Assembly (NCBI RefSeq): GCF_900141875.1
Contig: NZ_FQZE01000014.1
Span: 1-64,000, forward strand
Direction of reading: 5' to 3'
DNA length: 64,000 nucleotides
DNA from: Tangfeifania diversioriginum
GTDB taxonomy: Bacteria; Bacteroidota; Bacteroidia; Bacteroidales; Prolixibacteraceae
The translations under genes and the position numbers were made by a program. Numbering within the stretch: the stretch's first letter is position 1; each line of letters starts with the position of its first letter. Under the pieces are notes generated by a model that saw only the letters and a program-made list of their open reading frames with translations, made no database searches and was not told where the DNA came from. Positions 33,050-46,236 of the stretch are shown in pieces.

Positions 33050-34024
33050 ATGAATATAGGTGAGATTTTCAAAACAAAACGCTGGAAAACATTCATGGGC
33101 TATGTCTATGGATGGGGTGCATCTGTTGTAATGCTTGGAGCACTGTTCAAACTCCAGCACTGGGAATACTCCGGCTTATTTCTTACTATCGGGCTTATAA
33201 CAGAAGCCTTCATTTTCTTCCTGTCAGCTTTTGAACCGCCACTTGATATGCCCGACTGGGGTAAAGTTTATCCTGAATTGCGCGAAGAATACGAAATGAT
33301 GGATATGGATGAGTTGAACCAGGACAATAAAAAAGGCGGGTTCAACCAGTTGCTTGCTTCTTCTGATTTATCACCAGAACTCCTCGACAAAGTAGGCAAA
33401 AGTTTATCTGAACTGTCAGCAGCCGCGCGGGGAATCAGCGATATTTCCTCGGCAACACTGGCCACCGATATGTATGTGAAAAACCTGAGTTCTGCCTCCG
33501 AGTCAATGAATTCACTGGCCGAAATTAACAATCGCGCCAACAACACAATTAATGAATCGGTGAATAAATTAGTTGACTCTTATACCGCTGCATCGCAACA
33601 ATTTTCCGAATCAGGCAAAGGTACTATTGATACACTGCAAAAAGGCAGTGAGGAATTTTCGGCGCAACTATCAGAAACCGGAAAAAAGATTGCTGAAACG
33701 GTAAATGGAGCAACTGTTTCATTCTCAAACGAAATAAAAAATATTGGAGAGGGATCGAAACAATATTACAACAACCTTGAAAAACTGAATCAAAATATAA
33801 GTGCCTTAAACGAAAACTTTGAGAACCAGTTGCAAGGAACAAAAAGCCAGTTTGAAGCCAGTCATAAATTCAACAAAGATCTGTCGCAAATGAATGAAAT
33901 ACTATCCTCTTCGGTTTCCGAGCTCGAGAAGTATAAAGAGAATGCAGAAAAGTTGAATAAAAACCTGGAAGCACTGAATACCATTTATGGTAATATGCTG
34001 GGTGCAATGAGTTATAAGAAATAA
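33050..34024 (+). CDS. gldL: T9SS motor inner membrane protein GldL
   Basis: 324 residues. Two TM helices at the N-terminus (GYVYGWGASVVMLGALFKL and GLFLTIGLITEAFIFFLSAF) with a buried Glu (E52), the expected proton-channel residue of GldL. The long cytoplasmic tail is helical and predicted coiled coil, rich in N/S/E/K. GldL and GldM form the proton-driven motor that powers secretion and gliding. The tail is longer than in many homologues. It is followed 17 bases later by gldM. Confidence 0.95.
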   Translation: MNIGEIFKTKRWKTFMGYVYGWGASVVMLGALFKLQHWEYSGLFLTIGLITEAFIFFLSAFEPPLDMPDWGKVYPELREEYEMMDMDELNQDNKKGGFNQLLASSDLSPELLDKVGKSLSELSAAARGISDISSATLATDMYVKNLSSASESMNSLAEINNRANNTINESVNKLVDSYTAASQQFSESGKGTIDTLQKGSEEFSAQLSETGKKIAETVNGATVSFSNEIKNIGEGSKQYYNNLEKLNQNISALNENFENQLQGTKSQFEASHKFNKDLSQMNEILSSSVSELEKYKENAEKLNKNLEALNTIYGNMLGAMSYKK

Positions 34025-34041
34025 CATATAGAAGTTATACT

Positions 34042-35652
34042 ATGGGTGCAAAAAATTGTCCGGAAACACCGCGGCAAAAAATGATAAACATGATGTACAT
34101 TGTCCTCACCGCAATGTTGGCAATCAACGTGGCGGCCGAGGTGCTCGATGCATTCCAGGTAGTGGATTCAAGCCTTATCCAAACCCTGGAAACAGTGGAC
34201 ATGAAAAATGCACAGGTATATGCTTCTTTCGAACAGGCATATGCTGAAAATGAAACCAAGGTTAAAGAGTGGAAAGATAAGGCGGACAGTGTGAAAATGC
34301 TGACTTCCCAAATGTATTTATACCTTTCAAAACTGAAAGAGGATTTAGTCAGAGATTCCGGAGCTATCCCGGTATCTGACGACAGACCCTTGAGAGAAAA
34401 TGATTTTTACCTGGTTACAGAAAGTGGTGACACAATAATTCTGAAAAAAGAAGATGATTTGAATTCGCCTTCAGAATTTTTAATAACCCAGGGGAACGCT
34501 GAGCTTTTAAAAGAAAAAATTAATGAGTACAGAGCTAACATGGTTGCCCTTATTGAGGAGTCGGATACTGAACTGATTAATACTGTTGAAAGTGCACTCG
34601 ATACTTCCGATCCTCCGGTTAGCTTAAGAGAAGGCGGCGAAAGCAAATCGTGGGAAAGCGAACGTTTTCTGAATAAACCACTGGTGGCTATTCTTACTTT
34701 GCTTTCCAAAATTCAGATCGATGTAAAAAATACCGAAGCAAATCTTATCAACTATTTATATTCACAAATTGATGCCGGGTCGTTTAAATTCAATAAATTG
34801 GGTGCCCGTGTAATTCCAACCTCAAATGTTGTTTTACAGGGCGAAGAATATGTAGCTGAAGTTTTTCTGGCTGCTGAAGATACCACCCAGCAACCCGAGA
34901 TATTAATTAACAACCGGCCGGCAACTGTACAGGACGGGAAAGCAACCTACCGTGTGGAAGCAAATGAGCCCGGCGTTTTTAGCTGGAGTGGTGTTATTAA
35001 GTACAAAACACCCGCCGGTATTGTGAGAAATTATCCTTTCTCGCAGGAATATCAGGTTACACGACCCAGTGTTACCATGTCGGCCACACGAATGAATGTA
35101 TTTTATCGCGGCCTCGATAATCCTTTCGATGTTGGCGGTGGCGGAATACCCCAGGAGAACCTGGAAGTGCAAATGACAAACGGAACAGTTGTTAAAAGTG
35201 GCAACGAATATATTATTCGCCCTGATGAACTCGACGAACAGGGAAGAAACACAGTGGTGTCGGTTTATTCAAATATTGGAGGCGAAAGAAGGTTAGTTGG
35301 TTCCAGCCAGTGGCGCGTGAAAAGAGTTCCTGATCCGGTGGCCCAGGTTGCCGGCCTGTCAGGTGGAACTATTCGGAAAGAAAGGTTGCTGGTAGAAGAT
35401 GGCGTAATGGCTGTTTTGGAAGATTTTGATTTCGAGTTTGGTTATACTGTCACGCAGTTTACTATTCAAGTTCCGGGGCCCGGTGGCTATGTAAACCGTT
35501 GGGAATCGAATTCAAATCGCTTTACCGACGATCAAATAGCACAGTTCAGAAGACTTAATCCAGAAGAGATAGTATATATAAGTAACATCAGAGCAGTTGG
35601 GGATAATGGAGAAACACGCGATCTTGACCCAATTTCATTTAAAATACAGTAA
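34042..35652 (+). CDS. gldM: T9SS motor protein GldM
   Basis: 536 residues. Single N-terminal TM helix (NMMYIVLTAMLAINVAAEVL) preceded by NCPETPRQ, whose Arg is expected to pair with the GldL Glu. The periplasmic part contains a helical D1 domain (residues ~50-220) and then beta domains, e.g. YVAEVFLAAED, NPFDVGGGGIPQENLEV and the C-terminal VTQFTIQVPGPGG. GldM crosses the periplasm and meets the GldK-GldN ring. Length fits GldM/PorM (~515-535). gldN starts 2 bases after the stop. Confidence 0.95.
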   Translation: MGAKNCPETPRQKMINMMYIVLTAMLAINVAAEVLDAFQVVDSSLIQTLETVDMKNAQVYASFEQAYAENETKVKEWKDKADSVKMLTSQMYLYLSKLKEDLVRDSGAIPVSDDRPLRENDFYLVTESGDTIILKKEDDLNSPSEFLITQGNAELLKEKINEYRANMVALIEESDTELINTVESALDTSDPPVSLREGGESKSWESERFLNKPLVAILTLLSKIQIDVKNTEANLINYLYSQIDAGSFKFNKLGARVIPTSNVVLQGEEYVAEVFLAAEDTTQQPEILINNRPATVQDGKATYRVEANEPGVFSWSGVIKYKTPAGIVRNYPFSQEYQVTRPSVTMSATRMNVFYRGLDNPFDVGGGGIPQENLEVQMTNGTVVKSGNEYIIRPDELDEQGRNTVVSVYSNIGGERRLVGSSQWRVKRVPDPVAQVAGLSGGTIRKERLLVEDGVMAVLEDFDFEFGYTVTQFTIQVPGPGGYVNRWESNSNRFTDDQIAQFRRLNPEEIVYISNIRAVGDNGETRDLDPISFKIQ

Positions 35653-35654
35653 AT

Positions 35655-36506
35655 ATGAAAAAGTGTATTGGTTACATAGGAGCATTAATTTTCATCATTG
35701 TATTTACAGGAAATACAGTTAATGCCCAGATAATAAACGGGGCATACAGTACGAACAACATTTCGGAGAAAAGGCCAATGCCTTTACCGTCAGTACGCGA
35801 AGCAGATGTGTTTTGGTCGAAAACGATCTGGAGGGTTGTTGATTTACGCGAAAAAATGAATCAGACCCTTTATTATCCTACCGAAGAAACGGGCGGCCGG
35901 AAAAATTTGATTTCGTTACTATTGGACGGGATTCAAAACGGGCAGATTACACCTTATGATGCCCGACTCGACGATGATTTTAAAGTGCCGATGACATTTG
36001 AACAGGTACAGGAATCGTTCGGTGCCGAAGAAACCACCGAAGAAACCATAGACTTTGATACCGGCGAAAGAAAACAAGTAACCATCCAAGGCGAAATTCG
36101 GCCAAGCAATATTAAGCAGTACATGATTAAGGAGGAGTGGTATTTCGACAAACAGGCCTCTGCACTTAATGTACGCATAATCGGTATTTGTCCCATTCGC
36201 GAATTTACTAGGGAGGGCGATGAAACCGGACAGATGCAGCGTCAAAAGGTTTTTTGGGTGTATTACCCCGAAGCCAGGAACCTGCTCGCCACCAATGTGG
36301 CACTTAATCCGTACAACGAGGCTCAGTCCATGTCGTTTGACGAGCTTTTTATCAAACGTTTCTTTAACAGCTATGTTGTAAAAGAATCGAACGTGTATAA
36401 TAACCGTGATATAAGTGCCTATCTGAGCGGAAAAGAAGCCATGCTCGAATCGAAGAAAATTGAGGAAGAAATTTTCAACTTTGAGCAGGATCTTTGGGAA
36501 TATTAA
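35655..36506 (+). CDS. gldN: T9SS periplasmic ring protein GldN
   Basis: 283 residues. Signal peptide (IGALIFIIVFTGNTVNAQ), then the GldN/PorN pattern: ADVFWSKTIWRVVDLREKMN, LISLLLDGIQNGQITPYDAR, IKQYMIKEEWYFDKQ and SFDELFIKRFFNSYVVKESN. It partners GldK in the T9SS ring. It is the last gene of the block before a strong terminator. Confidence 0.94.
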   Translation: MKKCIGYIGALIFIIVFTGNTVNAQIINGAYSTNNISEKRPMPLPSVREADVFWSKTIWRVVDLREKMNQTLYYPTEETGGRKNLISLLLDGIQNGQITPYDARLDDDFKVPMTFEQVQESFGAEETTEETIDFDTGERKQVTIQGEIRPSNIKQYMIKEEWYFDKQASALNVRIIGICPIREFTREGDETGQMQRQKVFWVYYPEARNLLATNVALNPYNEAQSMSFDELFIKRFFNSYVVKESNVYNNRDISAYLSGKEAMLESKKIEEEIFNFEQDLWEY

Positions 36507-36525
36507 AATGAAAAAATTAAGTTCT

Positions 36526-36554
36526 GGCCTTATGGTTTCATAAGGCCTTTTTTT
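36526..36554 (+). terminator. Strong intrinsic terminator after gldN
   Basis: Perfect nine-base stem GGCCTTATG/CATAAGGCC, GTTT loop, then seven T residues. It closes the porP-gldKLMN operon and separates it from the second gldK-like gene. Confidence 0.95.
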
Positions 36555-36606
36555 ACTCAGGTAGTTTTTACCAACCAAAGAAAATTTTCCAGCAATATTG
36601 AAAAGA

Positions 36607-37959
36607 ATGAGAAAAGCAATAATTTATATTATTTTGGCCAGTGGCTTGCTTTTCAATTCATGCCGGAATGAAATTGTTCAGTACCTGCCCGGAGGCGAAC
36701 GAAAATCCAATAGCTGGTTCGAGCCCTCTCCTTTCGGAATGGTGTATGTCCCGCGTGGCTCATTTGTTATGGGGCCATCCGATGAGGAATTGACAGGAAT
36801 TGCTGAAAAATCAAAAAGAGTTTCAGTTGAATCATTCTGGATGGACGATACTGAAATTACCAATAACGAATACCGCCAGTTTGTGTACTGGGTGCGCGAC
36901 TCCATTGCCCGGAAGTTACTCGGCCAGACTTACACCGATTTTGTGATTACCGAAGACCTCAACGGCGTTCCTCTCGATGAACCTGTTATTGACTGGGAGG
37001 AAGAAATTGAATGGGACGATCCTGATTACCAACTGGCAATGGATGAATTATATATTCCTGAAGAAGAACGGCTTGCATTCAGGAAAGAAGTCGATCCCCG
37101 AAAACTGATTTATGAATATTACTGGGTTGATTACAAGCAGGCAGCAAGGCGGGAGAACAGCTACAATTTTGAAAGTGAAAGTTATGAGGGTACTGTTCTG
37201 ACACCTGAAGGCGAAACGGTTCCGGTTGCCAATCGCAGCTCTTTTATGATGCACGAAATGGTTCCCGTTTATCCGGATACCCTCACCTGGATACGTGATT
37301 TTACGTACACTTACAACGATCCGTTTACGATGAAATATTTTTCTCATGTGGCATTCGATAATTATCCTGTTGTGGGCGTTACCTGGAAACAGGCAAATGC
37401 TTTTAGCAGGTGGCGGACTGATCTGAAAAATGACTTCAGCAGCAGGTTAAATGAAGCACCTGCGCACGATTACCGGTTGCCCACCGAGGCTGAATGGGAA
37501 ATGGCCGCACGCGGCGGGTTAAACAATACGGTTTATCCCTGGGGGAGTTACTACACGCGAAATGTAAACGGCTGTTTTGTGGCTAACTTTAAACCTTTGC
37601 GCGGGAATTATGTGGCCGACAGTCCCACAACCACAACTGCAATGCAGGTTGGGAAGTTTGATCCCAATAATTACGGACTCTACGATATGGCCGGGAATGT
37701 GGCCGAATGGACCAGTACCGCTTTTTATGAAGCAGCATATGATGTGGTCAGCGATTTTAATCCGGAATTGCAGTACAATGCCCTGCCCGATGATCCGCCC
37801 GTGATGAAACGCAAAGTTATCAGAGGTGGTTCGTGGAAAGATATTGCCTACTTTATTCGCACTTCTACCCGAACATACGAATACCAGGATACAGCAAAAT
37901 CCTACATCGGCTTTCGCTGTGTAAGGTCCTCATTCAGAAATGAATTGCAAAACCGCTGA
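36607..37959 (+). CDS. Second GldK-family lipoprotein (GldK paralogue)
   Basis: About 450 residues. The ATG at 36607 is chosen (a TTG at 36598 is the alternative); lipoprotein signal KAIIYIILASGLLFNSC. The fold is the same as gldK at 31687 throughout: FGMVYVPRGSFVMGPSDEEL, FWMDDTEITNNEYRQFV (identical in both), YRLPTEAEWEMAARGG, YDMAGNVAEW, VIRGGSWKDIAYF and GFRCVRS. It is therefore a duplicate rather than GldJ by sequence. It may replace or modify GldK in the ring, or serve a distinct assembly. Its own transcription is implied by the terminator before it. Confidence 0.88.
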   Translation: MRKAIIYIILASGLLFNSCRNEIVQYLPGGERKSNSWFEPSPFGMVYVPRGSFVMGPSDEELTGIAEKSKRVSVESFWMDDTEITNNEYRQFVYWVRDSIARKLLGQTYTDFVITEDLNGVPLDEPVIDWEEEIEWDDPDYQLAMDELYIPEEERLAFRKEVDPRKLIYEYYWVDYKQAARRENSYNFESESYEGTVLTPEGETVPVANRSSFMMHEMVPVYPDTLTWIRDFTYTYNDPFTMKYFSHVAFDNYPVVGVTWKQANAFSRWRTDLKNDFSSRLNEAPAHDYRLPTEAEWEMAARGGLNNTVYPWGSYYTRNVNGCFVANFKPLRGNYVADSPTTTTAMQVGKFDPNNYGLYDMAGNVAEWTSTAFYEAAYDVVSDFNPELQYNALPDDPPVMKRKVIRGGSWKDIAYFIRTSTRTYEYQDTAKSYIGFRCVRSSFRNELQNR

Positions 37960-37964
37960 TTTTC

Positions 37965-39806
37965 TTAAAAGTTAAATCCTAATCCTGAGAATACCGTTGC
38001 TCCGGGCATGGTGTAAAAGCGATTGACCTGGTAATTCTGGTCCAGTAAGTTTTCTCCACTAATATACCACCTCAGGTTCGGCGTAATATTATAAACAGCT
38101 TTTGCTTTCAGTAGTGTATAATCAACCTTGTTTACATTTGGTGAAGGATCGTTGTCGAGGTTGGCAATTTGCTGAAGGCTTCCCATGAGTTGGAACTTTT
38201 TCCAACTATAATGAGCACTTACAAAAAAGTTATGTTCCGGAGTGGCAAAAACCGGGTTTTTCATATCCATAAAGCTGTAAGTGGTTTCAATAGTCAGTTT
38301 TTTGGTGGGGTGTGCATTTGCCGAAAATTCAACTCCTTTGTTTTCCACTTCGCCGGCATTTTTCAGGCCCTGCATTGGAACCGTTACAATGAGGTTGTCT
38401 CCCTCAATCATAAAAAAAGTAATTTCTGTATTTATCGTGTTATCAAAAAAGGATTTTGAGATTCCTGTTTCATAGTTCATTATTGTTTCAGGGTTGAGCT
38501 CCGGGTTGGGGCCCCATAAAAATAACTCGCGCATGGTTGGGCTGCGAAATCCTTTTGAAACAGTGCCTTTCCAGGTGGTGGATTCCTGGAGCTGCCAGGC
38601 AAATCCTGCCGACGGAATCCACTGGCTGCCGTAAACTGAATGATTCTGATACCGCAATCCGGCATTGAGCGTGAGTTTTTTAGCCAGTTTTTGCTGGACA
38701 AATCCATAAACTCCGGTTTCGCTGATGGTGGTGTCGGCAAAAACAATTCCGTTGCCGTTCATGGCTTTTAGGTTTTCTGCTTTGCCGCCGTAATTCATAT
38801 AATCCACACCCAAAGTAATGTTGTTGCCTTTAAATAATTTTAGTGATTCAAAAAAGTTGACACCGTAGTTATGGTCATTGGAATGAAACCCGTCGGTAAT
38901 ATTGTGTTCCCCAAAATTGTAAAATAATTTTAAAGAACCGGAGATTTTTTCCCATTCATTTTGCATGGTGAGCGCCCAGTATCCGCGGGAAATGTCAATT
39001 TTTTCTCCGGCAGATGCATTGATTGTATCCGGACCTGGGTCGGCAGCTTCAAAATCGGCCAGGCTGAAATCAGTTGTAAAATGTATGTGTTCGTTCAACT
39101 GGTATCCGAGCTTTGCGTAGCCGTTGTTTATTTTGAATTCAGAGTGCTCGCGATGGCCATCGGTATTATCATGGTTAGCCGATATAAAAGCGCTGAATTT
39201 ATCTTTTTTGAAGCCCGCTGAACCCATATATTTTTGGGTGTTAAAAGAGCCATAAGTAAAACGCGCATTTCCGTGAACTCCTTCCTGTGTCTGTTTTTTG
39301 GTGATAATATTGATGACACCTCCCATGGCATTTGAGCCGTAAAGGATAGAAGCCGGGCCCCGGATTACTTCCACGCGCTCAACATCAGAAGCCACGTATG
39401 AATCGGGCAGCGGGTGGCCCATAATTCCCATAAACTGAGGATGACCGTCAATGAGCATGAGCACTCCGGTTGTGGGATTTCCGCCAACTCCCCTGATGGA
39501 AATCTGGCCGGCAGAACCGGCAGCAACGCCAAAGCCGGTAACTCCGCGTTCGGTTACAAAAAGCCCCGGTACCTTTCCGTTTAAAACCGGCAGCAACGCC
39601 GATTCGTCGGTTTCTTCAATCTGCGTACGATTAACCACCGAAACGGCCATCGGCACATTATTTTTATTTACCTTAACCGGTGTGCCGGTAACCACAACTT
39701 CTTCAATTTCAATAGTATCTTTCAGTGATAGCTGTGCGGAAAGCAGTGCGGGGGATACAATCAATATAAACAGGAATAATTTTTTCGTTACGTTTTGTAT
39801 TTTCAT
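37965..39806 (-). CDS. TonB-dependent outer membrane receptor
   Basis: 613 residues. Signal peptide (LFLFILIVSPALLSAQ), TonB box-like IEIEEVVVTGTP, plug domain with LPVLNGKVPGLFVTERG, ISIRGVGGNPTTGVLMLIDG and VERVEVIRGPASILYGSNAM, then a 22-strand-like barrel ending in FSGLGFNF. It lacks the SusC-type N-terminal extension and is closest in size to BtuB/FepA-type metal or cofactor receptors. The nearest gene is the NikR-fold regulator at 39867; both promoters share the same repeat. A metal, chelate or cofactor substrate is therefore the best guess. Confidence 0.9.
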   Translation of the reverse strand: MKIQNVTKKLFLFILIVSPALLSAQLSLKDTIEIEEVVVTGTPVKVNKNNVPMAVSVVNRTQIEETDESALLPVLNGKVPGLFVTERGVTGFGVAAGSAGQISIRGVGGNPTTGVLMLIDGHPQFMGIMGHPLPDSYVASDVERVEVIRGPASILYGSNAMGGVINIITKKQTQEGVHGNARFTYGSFNTQKYMGSAGFKKDKFSAFISANHDNTDGHREHSEFKINNGYAKLGYQLNEHIHFTTDFSLADFEAADPGPDTINASAGEKIDISRGYWALTMQNEWEKISGSLKLFYNFGEHNITDGFHSNDHNYGVNFFESLKLFKGNNITLGVDYMNYGGKAENLKAMNGNGIVFADTTISETGVYGFVQQKLAKKLTLNAGLRYQNHSVYGSQWIPSAGFAWQLQESTTWKGTVSKGFRSPTMRELFLWGPNPELNPETIMNYETGISKSFFDNTINTEITFFMIEGDNLIVTVPMQGLKNAGEVENKGVEFSANAHPTKKLTIETTYSFMDMKNPVFATPEHNFFVSAHYSWKKFQLMGSLQQIANLDNDPSPNVNKVDYTLLKAKAVYNITPNLRWYISGENLLDQNYQVNRFYTMPGATVFSGLGFNF

Positions 39807-39820
39807 GACTTACTCAATTG

Positions 39821-39849
39821 GTGTTACTGTTTTGTTTATTCGTGTTACT
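39821..39849 (-). promoter_or_regulatory. Tandem GTGTTAC operator of the TonB receptor
   Basis: GTGTTACT occurs at 39821-39828 and again at 39842-39849, start-to-start 21 bases, immediately upstream of the receptor ATG at 39806. The same motif, spacing and orientation are found before the NikR-like gene (40270-40297). Confidence 0.65.
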
Positions 39850-39866
39850 ATTGTGGTAAAAAATTT

Positions 39867-40268
39867 TTATTCTGCTTTGCTCATCACGAGTTTGCCGTGC
39901 TGAATTCCCCTGACACTTATTAGTTTGTCGGAGATTTCAGTGAGTTTCTTTGAGGGGCCTTTTACTGCAATAATCTGGAGGTAGTTTTCTTCGTTCAGGT
40001 AAAATCCCTGTGTGGAAAGAATGTACTTTTTGTGGTCAAATTGAATGTCTGACGATTTTTTAAGAATATCAGTTTTGTCGTGGTTAAATACCAAAACAAC
40101 AGCTCCTGCCACAATATTATCGCATTTCCATTTTTCTTCCACCAGGTTTTTTTCAATCAGGTGGCGAATGGCCTGCGAGCGGTTGGCAAAAAGATTTTCC
40201 GAAACGTATTCATCCAACGCTTTTAACAAATCTTCGTCGAGTGAAACTCCAAAACGTGTAACTGACAT
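39867..40268 (-). CDS. NikR-family ribbon-helix-helix regulator without nickel ligands
   Basis: 133 residues. N-terminal ribbon-helix-helix (TRFGVSLDEDLLKALDEYV, then ANRSQAIRHLIEKNL) and a C-terminal ACT-like domain (IVAGAVVLVFNHDK, EENYLQIIAVKGP, ISVRGIQHGKLV) match NikR over its full length. In E. coli NikR nickel binds H76, H87, H89 and C95. By manual alignment the equivalent positions here are Phe, Gly, Tyr and Tyr, so the high-affinity nickel site is absent. The RGIQHG segment near the C-terminus is kept. It probably responds to another signal. It is transcribed in the same direction as the receptor gene, with its own promoter repeat. Confidence 0.85.
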   Translation of the reverse strand: MSVTRFGVSLDEDLLKALDEYVSENLFANRSQAIRHLIEKNLVEEKWKCDNIVAGAVVLVFNHDKTDILKKSSDIQFDHKKYILSTQGFYLNEENYLQIIAVKGPSKKLTEISDKLISVRGIQHGKLVMSKAE

Positions 40269-40269
40269 G

Positions 40270-40297
40270 GTGTTACTTTATTTAAAATACGTGTTAC
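40270..40297 (-). promoter_or_regulatory. Tandem GTGTTAC operator of the NikR-like gene
   Basis: GTGTTAC at 40270-40276 and 40291-40297 (21 bases start to start), just before the ATG at 40268. Shared sequence with the receptor site extends to GGTGTTACT at the first half-site and CGTGTTAC at the second. It suggests autoregulation. Confidence 0.65.
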
Positions 40298-40369
40298 GAA
40301 AATATAAAAACTGATGAAAATAGAAAAAGGAGTAATGCATTTTTTTAGATGTAAATTTTCAACGGGGGG

Positions 40370-42301
40370 TCAGTATTTAACGATTATTCGTTCCGTCGTT
40401 TTTTCCGAGGTTTCAATTTTAAGGATATAAATTCCCTGCGAAAGGTTCGAAAGATTGAGAGTAGTCTGATTTTCATCGAATTGATTCAGTAATTTTCCTG
40501 CCGCGCTGAATATCCTGGTTTTGAGAATTGACTGGTTTCCGTTCAAAATGATCGAAACTTCATTCACAAACGGATTTGGGGAAACAATAATTGTTTCCGG
40601 ATTTTCGGTGAGTTGAAGGTTTACTACTTCAGCTGTTTGAGAAATCAGCCAGTAATCCGGATCGATTTTAATTTCTGAAACGATAAATCCAGGCTGAACT
40701 TGAAATTGCTGGTTGTTTTCTGTGTGCATTATCCTGAAGTTGGCCGAATCAGTTTTTTGGGTGTTGTAAACCCTGACAGGCACAGGCATTTCAAAAAAAT
40801 CTACCGAATTGTGTGAAGGTGTTTGCGAAAGGGTAATTTGTAAATTTTGGGCATCTGTTTGTGAAAATTCAGCCGAGTAAACAGGAAAACCTTCGCCATA
40901 AAACCAGTCGTTGAAAAACTCGGAGAGGGTAGTATCACCAGCAGTTTCAAAATGTTTGATCAATTGACTGGTGCGGGCAAAACCATTTGCGACTTCCGGG
41001 TCGCTAAAATAATTGCGGATGGCATTAAAAAATGGCTCGTCGCCCAAAACCCAGCGCAACATGTGGAGCAAATAAGCGCCTTTTGAGTAAGAGAGCCTGC
41101 TGCTGAAAGTTCGCGAAACGCTTGTGGTGTCTTCAACAAAAACGCTTCCCCCGGGTTCGCTGGTAATGCGATTGTGGTTCAGCCTTTTCCATCTTGGCCA
41201 CCACACTCCATCGAGCATATTCTCGTACGTCAGGCCCGAAAGATAGGTGGCAAATCCTTCGTTCAGCCAAATATCCTGCCAGCTGCCCAGGGTAATGTAA
41301 TTGCCAAACCACTGGTGCGCCAGTTCGTGTGCAACAAGTTCAAAGCCAAAGCTGCCCATAAAACTCATGGTTTGGTGTTCCATGCCGCCTCCCCATCCAA
41401 ACTGGGCATGGCCGTATTTTTCATTGGCAAAAGGATATTCACCGATTAATTCATTAAAAAGAGCCATTATTTCTGCAGTTACAGGAGTTTCGGTTTTGGC
41501 TTTTGCTTCGTTTTCTGGATAAACAAAATTCAGGATTTCAATTTCCCGGCCATCTTCAGTTGCCAGGGAATCGGAATAATCAGCATAATTGGTAACTGCA
41601 ATGGCAACCAAATAGGTGGCAATGGGGTAGCGGTGTTTCCAGTGCATGGTGCGTTTCCCGGCTGTAACTTTTTCAGAAACCAAAATGCCGTTACTCGCAG
41701 TTCGGTAGGGTTCCGGGGTGGTGACAATCACATCGATCGAATCAATTTTGTCAGCAAGCGATTGTTTGCAGGGCCACCATTCCATGGCACCGTAGGGTTC
41801 GGAAAGTGTCCAGAGCACAGGCGTTTGGTTATGGGTACCAATGGTAAACGAACCAAAACCGGTGGACGGTGGTTCGCCCTGGTAAAAAACGGAGAGCGAG
41901 TCAGTTTGTCCTTTGCTGAGCGTTTCATGCAGCTGGATGCTGATTCTGTTTTTGTTGCGTGAAAAATTAATGGGTTGTCCTTTTTGGGTAATGGAATCAA
42001 CTATCATTTCTGCATGCAAATCGAATTCAATTTCAGTGAGGTTTGTTTGCTGACTTTTAAAGTAAGATGTTATTTCTCCGCTGATGAAAGAGACAGCAGG
42101 ATCGACTTCCCATTCCATACGCTGGTAAATTAAATCGTAATCAGCATAACTTTCCGTTTCGGCAAAAGCAGTTTTTTTCAAAAACCGGCTACTTTCCTGT
42201 TGGGCCATTTTATCGGTGAAAAAGGGATCGGGTTCCTGCGCCCAAAGTATTGACGGAAAAGAAAAAAACAATACTATCCGGAAAATATTTTGTTTTATCA
42301 T
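40370..42301 (-). CDS. Secreted M1 family metallopeptidase with T9SS sorting domain
   Basis: 643 residues. Signal peptide (FRIVLFFSFPSILWAQ). M1 aminopeptidase motifs: WGGGMEHQTMSF, zinc motif HELAHQWFGN with the second Glu in WLNEGFATYLSG. After residue ~555 comes a short Ig-like region and a type A C-terminal sorting domain starting IVSPNPFVNEVSIIL and ending GIYILKIETSEKTTERIIVK. It is thus a likely cargo of the T9SS encoded at 30719-36506. It removes N-terminal residues from extracellular peptides; specificity unknown. Confidence 0.92.
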   Translation of the reverse strand: MIKQNIFRIVLFFSFPSILWAQEPDPFFTDKMAQQESSRFLKKTAFAETESYADYDLIYQRMEWEVDPAVSFISGEITSYFKSQQTNLTEIEFDLHAEMIVDSITQKGQPINFSRNKNRISIQLHETLSKGQTDSLSVFYQGEPPSTGFGSFTIGTHNQTPVLWTLSEPYGAMEWWPCKQSLADKIDSIDVIVTTPEPYRTASNGILVSEKVTAGKRTMHWKHRYPIATYLVAIAVTNYADYSDSLATEDGREIEILNFVYPENEAKAKTETPVTAEIMALFNELIGEYPFANEKYGHAQFGWGGGMEHQTMSFMGSFGFELVAHELAHQWFGNYITLGSWQDIWLNEGFATYLSGLTYENMLDGVWWPRWKRLNHNRITSEPGGSVFVEDTTSVSRTFSSRLSYSKGAYLLHMLRWVLGDEPFFNAIRNYFSDPEVANGFARTSQLIKHFETAGDTTLSEFFNDWFYGEGFPVYSAEFSQTDAQNLQITLSQTPSHNSVDFFEMPVPVRVYNTQKTDSANFRIMHTENNQQFQVQPGFIVSEIKIDPDYWLISQTAEVVNLQLTENPETIIVSPNPFVNEVSIILNGNQSILKTRIFSAAGKLLNQFDENQTTLNLSNLSQGIYILKIETSEKTTERIIVKY

Positions 42302-45320: not shown

Positions 45321-45360
45321 CCTTTTATTGTTTTATTCAACACATTCAGAAAAAGCTAAA

Positions 45361-46236
45361 ATGAAACAACTATTTTTTGTACTTACTTTAACTGCATTGC
45401 TTTTTTCCTGTAATTCAAAAAAAACAAAAAATCAGGATTCAGGGAAACAGGTGGTGACTGTAAGTATTTTGCCACAAAAAACATTTGTGGAAAAAATTGG
45501 CGGTAACGATTTTGAAGTTAACGTGCTGATACCGCCCGGTGCAAGTCCTTCCACCTACACTTTGCTGCCTTCGCAGCTTAAAAAAATTTCCCGTTCCGAA
45601 ATCTGGTTCCGCATTGGTTATATTGGGTTTGAACATTCGTGGAAAGATAAAATAGAGCAGGCCAATAAAAACATGAAAGTTGTGAATCTTTCTGAAGGGC
45701 TTGATTTAATTGCCGGCAGTGAAGTTCAGCATGGCGACCATGTGCACATCGACGGTGTGGATCCGCATACCTGGCTCTCGCCGCAATTGGTTAAGCAAAT
45801 GGCCCAACGGATTATGGAAGAGCTCTCGGAACTTCAGCCCGAAAACAGCGACGAATACAACTCCAATTACCTTCAATTTGTAAAAGAGATCGATGAGCTG
45901 GACAATGAAATCAGAACAAAACTGAAAAACTACCAAGGGAAAGAGTTCATCACTTTTCACCCGAGCCTTTCCTATTTTGCCCGCGAATACGGATTGGTCC
46001 AGCATTCGCTTGAACTGGAGGGAAAAGAGCCTACTCCCAAACACATGTCGGAAGTTGTGAAACTGGCCAAAGAAAAAAATATCGAAGTAATTTTTATTCA
46101 GAGCGAATTTGATCGCGACCATGCCCGTGTATTTGCCGAGGAGGTCGGCGGAGAAATAGTAGAAGTCACCCCGCTTGACCCCAACTGGGCTGAAAACCTG
46201 GTGGAATTGACCAATATTTTAACCGATAACTTTTAA
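45361..46236 (+). CDS. znuA: Zinc/metal ABC transporter substrate-binding lipoprotein
   Basis: About 291 residues from the ATG at 45361, with lipoprotein signal MKQLFFVLTLTALLFSC. Cluster A-I fold: VSILPQKTFVEKIGG, LIPPGASPSTYTL, a short His-rich run VQHGDHVHIDGVDPHTWLSP supplying metal ligands, FHPSLSYFAREYGL and the C-terminal Asp in EVTPLDPNWAENL. It captures Zn(II) or Mn(II). The histidine pattern favours zinc. Its stop overlaps the znuC start. Confidence 0.88.
   Translation: MKQLFFVLTLTALLFSCNSKKTKNQDSGKQVVTVSILPQKTFVEKIGGNDFEVNVLIPPGASPSTYTLLPSQLKKISRSEIWFRIGYIGFEHSWKDKIEQANKNMKVVNLSEGLDLIAGSEVQHGDHVHIDGVDPHTWLSPQLVKQMAQRIMEELSELQPENSDEYNSNYLQFVKEIDELDNEIRTKLKNYQGKEFITFHPSLSYFAREYGLVQHSLELEGKEPTPKHMSEVVKLAKEKNIEVIFIQSEFDRDHARVFAEEVGGEIVEVTPLDPNWAENLVELTNILTDNF

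Follow-up and report, generated by a model that had tools for sequence, protein, structure and literature searches.

The 64,000-bp stretch of the Tangfeifania diversioriginum genome analyzed here (hereafter, the window) encodes a 133 aa NikR-family regulator lacking the nickel ligands of the family (39867–40268, minus strand; an open reading frame with ribbon-helix-helix and NikR_C domains) beside a TonB-dependent receptor. This arrangement raises the question of what such a regulator senses and what it controls. The answer that we favor, at slightly better than even, is that it represents a Bacteroidota subfamily of NikR in which nickel sensing was lost while the NikR fold and operator were kept, and which would repress the supply of the nickel-pincer nucleotide (NPN) cofactor, probably by sensing the cofactor.

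In Pfam searches the regulator matched NikR_C (PF08753, 72.2 bits) and the ribbon-helix-helix family PF01402 (21.7 bits), and its best solved relative was the NikR protein of P. horikoshii (2bj1; phmmer E 4.6e-29). An AlphaFold2 model built from 46 homologues had a mean pLDDT of 86 (single chain, uninformative on the tetramer); its C-terminal domain fitted the nickel-bound C-terminal domains of NikR in 1q5y and 2y3y at 1.2–1.3 Å, and the 50 Foldseek matches listed for the model were NikR throughout. The NikR fold proposed in the initial annotation is thus borne out by the Pfam matches, the alignment to 2bj1 and the Foldseek comparison of the predicted model. Its second claim, that all four nickel ligands are gone, also holds: in the HMMER alignment to 2bj1, gapless through the metal site, the ligands His, His, His and Cys are replaced by Phe77, Gly88, Tyr90 and Tyr96. 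Judged by this alignment, Ni(II) sensing at the known NikR site is excluded for the window's protein, which may still sense the metal elsewhere; a response to nickel would not be expected. The residues Glu30 and Asp34 of the E. coli potassium site correspond by eye to Gln32 and His36 in the regulator, and likewise in ligand-intact Bacteroidales rows.

The regulator forms a two-gene unit with the receptor (613 aa, YncD/BtuB-like, with Pfam TonB_dep_Rec_b-barrel and Plug domains; 37965–39806), both on the minus strand. Each gene is preceded by a predicted operator that reads GTAACAC-N14-GTAACAC on the gene strand. The autoregulatory one (40270–40297, minus strand) ends 1 base before the regulator ATG, and the receptor operator (39821–39848, minus strand), an exact match to the pattern, lies between the two genes, 18 bases from the stop codon of the regulator and 14 from the receptor ATG. 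A −7-like box, TATTTTCG (40297–40304, minus strand), which we take to resemble the Bacteroidota −7 promoter consensus TAnnTTTG, overlaps the first base of the regulator operator. Exact copies of GTGTTAC-N14-GTGTTAC were found in the window at these two places only (mean of 0.00 in 100 dinucleotide shuffles), and the GTGTTAC pairs first noticed ahead of both genes are therefore real. The whole genome (4.78 Mb), in which a single NikR_C protein is encoded, contains three exact copies and none of the reversed control; the third, with a mixed spacer, is located between a contig end and a presumably WecB-like open reading frame and is probably due to chance. When the pattern was relaxed to GTRNYAC in both halves, four places were found genome-wide, two of them outside the locus, and the reversed control also gave four. 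The pattern is thus at background outside the locus, and the two extra sites look like chance.

Just upstream of the regulator is a gene for an M1-family peptidase that ends in a sorting tail for type IX secretion (40370–42301, minus strand), and a peptidase of the same cluster is found upstream of the regulator in many relatives. Genes that we take to be gliding-motility-like (GldL, GldM, GldN and GldK/GldJ-like; 33050–37959, plus strand) converge on the receptor gene, and at 45328–46236 (plus strand) there is a gene for a zinc-type ABC substrate-binding protein, presumably ZnuA-like, one stretch of which contains His.

Two sets of relatives were used to analyze the distribution of such regulators. 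The first set came from a scan of 84,980 genomes, where the best 80 of 93 relatives provided 79 loci, 67 of them in Bacteroidota. The second was a survey of the order, with 392 evenly sampled genomes of 90% or higher completeness, 94 of which had NikR_C; after exclusion of five NikR_C matches near 22 bits (21.9–23.1 bits; G070, G114, G256, G342 and the second match of G365), it comprised 94 loci in 90 genomes, the window included. We called a regulator ligand-less if it had any state other than HHHC at the four ligand positions; one survey locus of which only the C-terminal part was read (L166, genome G340) was counted as ligand-intact. Ligand-less NikR accounted for 27 of the 94 survey loci and, with both sets merged (the first as the best 80 of 93), for 68 of 150 distinct Bacteroidota NikRs: 39 of these keep none of the ligands, among them the window's regulator, 24 keep one and five keep two.

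Within the first set (best 80 of 93), the ligand-less kin closest to the window's regulator belong to Mariniphaga, Draconibacterium, Maribellus, Paludibacter and their kin, and HHHC is kept in most other Bacteroidales rows, three flavobacteria and 12 rows from outside the phylum. Three first-set loci in which HHHC is not kept (L042, L062, L067) fall outside the window's close kin. The locus of the window is also present in Draconibacterium orientale (L012). The window's clade comprised 43 rows in the first tree (support 99/94) and 46 rows in the larger tree of 153 rows, i.e., 150 Bacteroidota and three outgroups (SH-aLRT 98), so that the branch without nickel ligands suggested by the initial annotation is a whole clade rather than one genome. 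Six changes of ligand state were placed on the larger tree by parsimony. A topology holding all ligand-less rows together was not rejected on either the first tree (p 0.425) or the larger one (AU p 0.61); for this reason the claim of at least six independent ligand losses was dropped, and one single ligand-less subfamily is possible.

Operators in relatives were scored against GTRNYAC-N14-GTRNYAC, which has 12 informative positions, and a score of at least 11 counted as a site. Ahead of nikR such sites were present at 43/67 ligand-less and 26/81 ligand-intact loci (about 0.1% in shuffles), starting at −29 or −28, and within 260 bases past nikR at 53/68 and 20/82 loci, respectively (0.4–0.6% in mononucleotide shuffles). 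The −7-like box abuts the nikR operator at 39/67 ligand-less and 20/81 ligand-intact loci. Half-site pairs with the 21-base period recur in other Bacteroidota, ahead of both nikR and the next gene, and the proposed placing of operators on the regulator itself and on the TonB receptor agrees with the conservation of site positions across species. Because the operator overlaps the −7-like box and the start of its own gene, and just precedes the target gene, binding would block transcription; a tetramer occupying the 28-bp site over the promoter would act as a repressor.

The orientation of the half-sites varied. Ahead of ligand-less nikR genes the inverted arrangement was the commonest (15 of 43), followed by the direct one (12), and ahead of the next gene the halves were direct in 43/53 ligand-less and 19/20 ligand-intact cases; most next-gene operators of the QQYC group were inverted. 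The operator of E. coli NikR, GTATGA-N16-TCATAC, likewise spans 28 bp, as given in PMC7055735. Since this 28-bp total frame is shared with E. coli and the half-site GTRNYAC is nearly its own reverse complement, direct versus inverted is not a difference between families. The initial description of a direct repeat instead of a dyad is therefore correct for the window but does not mark a departure from the NikR operator, as the 28-bp frame is kept and ligand-intact NikRs share the site. A separate mode of recognition based on direct repeats was rejected, given that relatives vary the orientation within one 28-bp frame.

A link to the lar genes of NPN biosynthesis was revealed in related species, the window's own genome being without LarB and LarC. 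In the first set (best 80 of 93), larE and larB follow nikR at six ligand-less loci (L034, L037, L050, L055, L059 and L064); larC comes next in four of them, L059 ends earlier and L064 has another gene there, and a His-rich permease is present at five of the six. In the order survey lar genes adjoined nikR at six loci, from G052 (which is the genome of L037), G243, G206, G164, G411 and G057, all with ligand-less regulators. Scans of the first set for LarC, PF09861 and NiFe hydrogenase covered 50 of the 67 Bacteroidota loci, the window's own genome being handled too. LarC was detected in 9/29 ligand-less genomes of the first set (best 80 of 93) and in 7/26 of the survey, which makes 15 distinct genomes. 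The lar genes adjoin nikR in 11 of them. In the other four (L006, L016, L033, G386) a larE-larC-larB-permease operon is located away from nikR, and in all four a site scoring 11–12 of 12 starts 44–127 bp before larE. Thus, in 15 out of 15 ligand-less genomes with LarC the NPN genes either adjoin nikR or carry a predicted operator at larE. Since they cannot be put down to adjacency, the four sites in trans provide the strongest evidence for the link.

Among the 31 survey genomes that combine LarC with a ligand-intact NikR, by contrast, lar genes were adjacent to nikR in none, and a site of at least 11 within 300 bp upstream of a lar gene was found in none, some of these lar loci reaching a contig end or showing no LarE/LarB beside LarC. 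For the 17 ligand-intact genomes with LarC in the first set the check covered adjacency only. Five lar loci from NikR-less genomes had no upstream site. When the lar loci were shuffled, such sites turned up at a background of 3.5 per 167 kb; five sites of at least 11 found elsewhere in the examined lar loci (one each in L200, L211 and L223, two overlapping in L215) all lie inside other open reading frames, and that of the L215 pair is divergent to larC, at a distance of about 600 bp. Comparison of 7/7 with 0/31 gives a Fisher p of 7.9e-8, which ignores shared ancestry and overstates independence, because the genomes share a phylogeny in which a single origin is not rejected.

It should be mentioned that larC was matched as two overlapping or abutting pieces in different frames at L050:7993–9281 and in G243, G063 and G441, a structure that recalls the larC1/larC2 frameshift of Lactiplantibacillus.

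In the window's own genome a profile search revealed no LarC, and the best LarB match, presumably PurE, reached 40.8 bits against a cut-off of 175; LarB exceeded its cut-off in 0 of 34 genomes without LarC in one scan. No NiFe hydrogenase was found in this genome either; in the first set (best 80 of 93) this enzyme exceeded the cut-off in 14/21 ligand-intact versus 2/30 ligand-less genomes. The genome does encode an NPN-family enzyme, the LarAH18 equivalog ("nickel-dependent putative hexonate epimerase"; 657.5 bits, cut-off 500; L085:4073–5359 on contig C56, minus strand), whose neighbors are a sugar kinase and sugar oxidoreductases. Structure 4NAR is T. maritima GntE2 according to PMC7583248, and the residue roles listed in PMC11770544 are phosphate binding for Arg75, cofactor lysine for Lys184, nickel for His200 and catalysis for His108 and His174. 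These five cofactor and catalytic residues have apparent counterparts in the LarAH18 of T. diversioriginum (alignment to 4NAR, matched by eye). With LarAH18 present and both LarB and LarC absent, the bacterium appears to use NPN without the NPN genes that were searched for. No operator site of at least 11 was found in the 10 kb around its LarAH18. The supply genes carry sites and the LarAH18 locus has none, which fits sensing of NPN rather than of enzyme substrates.

LarAH18 was recorded in 59 genomes of the order survey (58 over the cut-off, and G276, where the gene is split). It occurs without LarC in 25 of them, the window's genome included, and NikR is missing altogether from 15 of these 25; the regulator system is therefore not a requirement for having LarAH18 in the absence of lar genes. 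PF09861 was present in 19/21 ligand-less genomes without LarC, again including that of the window (first set, best 80 of 93), and a LarA-domain match in 16 of the 18 main-clade genomes with a receptor and without LarC. LarAH18 itself was found in 6/16 ligand-less, receptor-linked genomes of the survey that have no LarC; both LarC and LarAH18 are missing from ten genomes in which a ligand-less NikR is linked to the receptor, most of them belonging to the QQYC group, and two loci (L061 and L063) come from genomes with regulator and receptor and no LarC or LarA match.

The receptor matched TIGR01779 with E 8e-45, under the family cut-off, and its matches in the PDB were YncD, a PQQ transporter and BtuB. 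His131 and His301 are conserved in 68 out of 68 NikR-adjacent orthologues (E ≤ 1e-60), 20 from ligand-intact and 48 from ligand-less loci. The plug contains a His/Met-rich motif, HPQFMGIMGHP, near residue 131, the Met126 and His131 columns being kept in most or all orthologues; the motif is a possible metal contact. As receptors next to ligand-intact NikRs share these His and Met positions, they fit an unchanged nickel-type, metal-containing substrate, and the comparison suggests that the receptor's substrate has remained so; a switch of substrate together with the regulator is unsupported.

Within the main clade of the first set, 18 genomes have the receptor without LarC, two have both, seven have LarC without the receptor and none has neither. 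One survey genome (G206; L130 and L131) contains two ligand-less paralogues, an IRIH type beside larE-larC-larB-permease and an SGYY type beside a receptor. The idea that receptor and lar genes never occur together was discarded, since this genome has both under its two paralogues and L006 and L016 combine them as well. In the window's genome, where LarB and LarC are absent and sites of the predicted operator are found on regulator and receptor only, the receptor probably imports the cofactor or a nickel complex. Import of NPN was not retained as a firm claim, being weakened by the order survey with its absences of LarAH18 and LarC and its NikR-less LarAH18 genomes; either NPN or a nickel complex may be the substrate. 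We offer only tentatively, as a possibility of rather low probability, a fuller scheme in which a sensor of metal ions has turned into a sensor of the finished organometallic cofactor: the ligand-less NikR would bind NPN and, in bacteria that have lost NPN synthesis, control a TonB receptor salvaging the NPN of neighbors in a B12-like exchange.

The initial annotation held that the regulator senses something else than nickel. The regulon now gives this proposal a specific candidate, the NPN cofactor, and the effector itself is still inferred. It would be NPN or a late intermediate, i.e., control by the end product: high cofactor would favor DNA binding and scarcity would release the regulator. 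Ser106 is present in 45/46 rows of the main clade, in 3/4 LRTS/IRIH rows and in 0/15 QQYC-type rows, with Ala in 72/82 ligand-intact rows; the LRTS/IRIH group is also found at lar genes. In the N-terminal strand, R5, F6, G7 and V8 do not vary across 46 rows.

The former ligand columns, invariant in ligand-intact rows, hold ranks 10, 11, 29 and 16 when the 133 columns of the main clade are ordered by variability, and across all ligand-less rows no common residue replaces the old nickel site. Such wide drift, together with the frequent Tyr or Phe at position 90, as though packing counted, and the retained operator, would suit a metal-blind constitutive repressor in which hydrophobic or H-bonded side chains of Phe/Tyr, Lys/Tyr or Gln/Tyr pairs replace the inter-subunit nickel cross-link and keep target expression low without any effector. 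We consider this unlikely, because the C-terminal domain keeps its conservation away from the ligand columns, more than a mere tether would call for, and because Cys49 is invariant in ligand-less rows (68/68, against 33/82 ligand-intact rows).

The same Cys49, or His124, or the domain interface, could instead serve a protein that still senses nickel or another metal. His124 is invariant in 46 aligned rows, the targets are still nickel-related and the receptor retains His131 and His301. The ligand-intact rows of the same alignment, however, likewise all have His124, Cys49 is found in 33 of the 82 ligand-intact rows as well, and many ligand-less genomes are without NiFe hydrogenase and LarC, which leaves metal sensing by these residues a distinctly poor prospect.

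By automatic annotation the protein would simply be named nickel-responsive, as it scores 130.9 bits against the cut-off of 105 for the NCBIfam equivalog NF003381. Family score, fold and operator frame are indeed those of an ordinary NikR, but with four of the four ligands substituted in an alignment free of gaps at that place we regard a normal nickel response as very improbable. Metal-regulon predictions for these bacteria may thus be wrong, since the known way of binding nickel is closed to a clade that family models name nickel-responsive NikR. Hardly credible at all is the idea that an old nickel regulator is decaying in bacteria that have abandoned nickel enzymes, as lost ligands and rare NiFe hydrogenase in ligand-less genomes might suggest: the median dN/dS of the FGYY-type clade (0.076; 57/325 pairs usable) is close to that of nearby ligand-intact rows (0.052; 26/210 pairs), both values being rough because synonymous sites are near saturation, and this purifying selection, the operator positions conserved over many species and the lar targets in relatives all argue against decay.

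The subfamily offers a natural series for the loss of an allosteric metal site with DNA reading kept, and it raises the question of NPN auxotrophs that import the cofactor. A search of the open-access literature for descriptions of a NikR without nickel ligands, or of one located at lar genes, found none, which does not establish priority, and revealed no regulator of NPN biosynthesis tied to cofactor supply; earlier work reportedly includes Geobacter NikR, LarR and predicted nickel TonB receptors. As far as the sequence comparisons go, the new element looks to be the regulon, with a candidate repressor of NPN biosynthesis genes apparently tied to cofactor supply.

Like the NikR proteins of E. 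coli, H. pylori and P. horikoshii, the regulator combines a ribbon-helix-helix domain with the NikR_C fold and is predicted to control uptake genes, and its operator, like that of E. coli NikR, has two half-sites within 28 bp. The genes under the control of the H. pylori protein include fecA3 and frpB4 (PMC7055735). Unlike these three NikR proteins the regulator has no His-His-His-Cys site, and the predicted regulon of its relatives includes lar genes. Ligand-intact Bacteroidales NikRs have the same operator in the same position before the gene and, at 20 loci, the same receptor family; they differ in their intact nickel site and in their neighbors, which are often NikMNQO/CbiMQO-type or ABC transporters. 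Near one ligand-intact NikR (L065:2436–3908) we observed a protein that joins a nucleoside-hydrolase domain to an FmdE domain, and further members of its cluster (L041, L045, L046, L052–L054 and L058) often adjoin genes for a TonB receptor or nickel transporters. LarR of Lactiplantibacillus plantarum also regulates lar genes, but it is an activator of no kinship to NikR, which responds to lactate, the substrate of the enzyme, and is not known to respond to metal or cofactor. A parallel in logic may be the cobalamin riboswitch found with btuB or cob genes, where one sensor governs either synthesis or TonB-dependent import of an organometallic cofactor, and import survives the loss of synthesis; there the sensor is an RNA, whereas here it would be a protein repressor, with NPN import and NPN sensing as proposals only.
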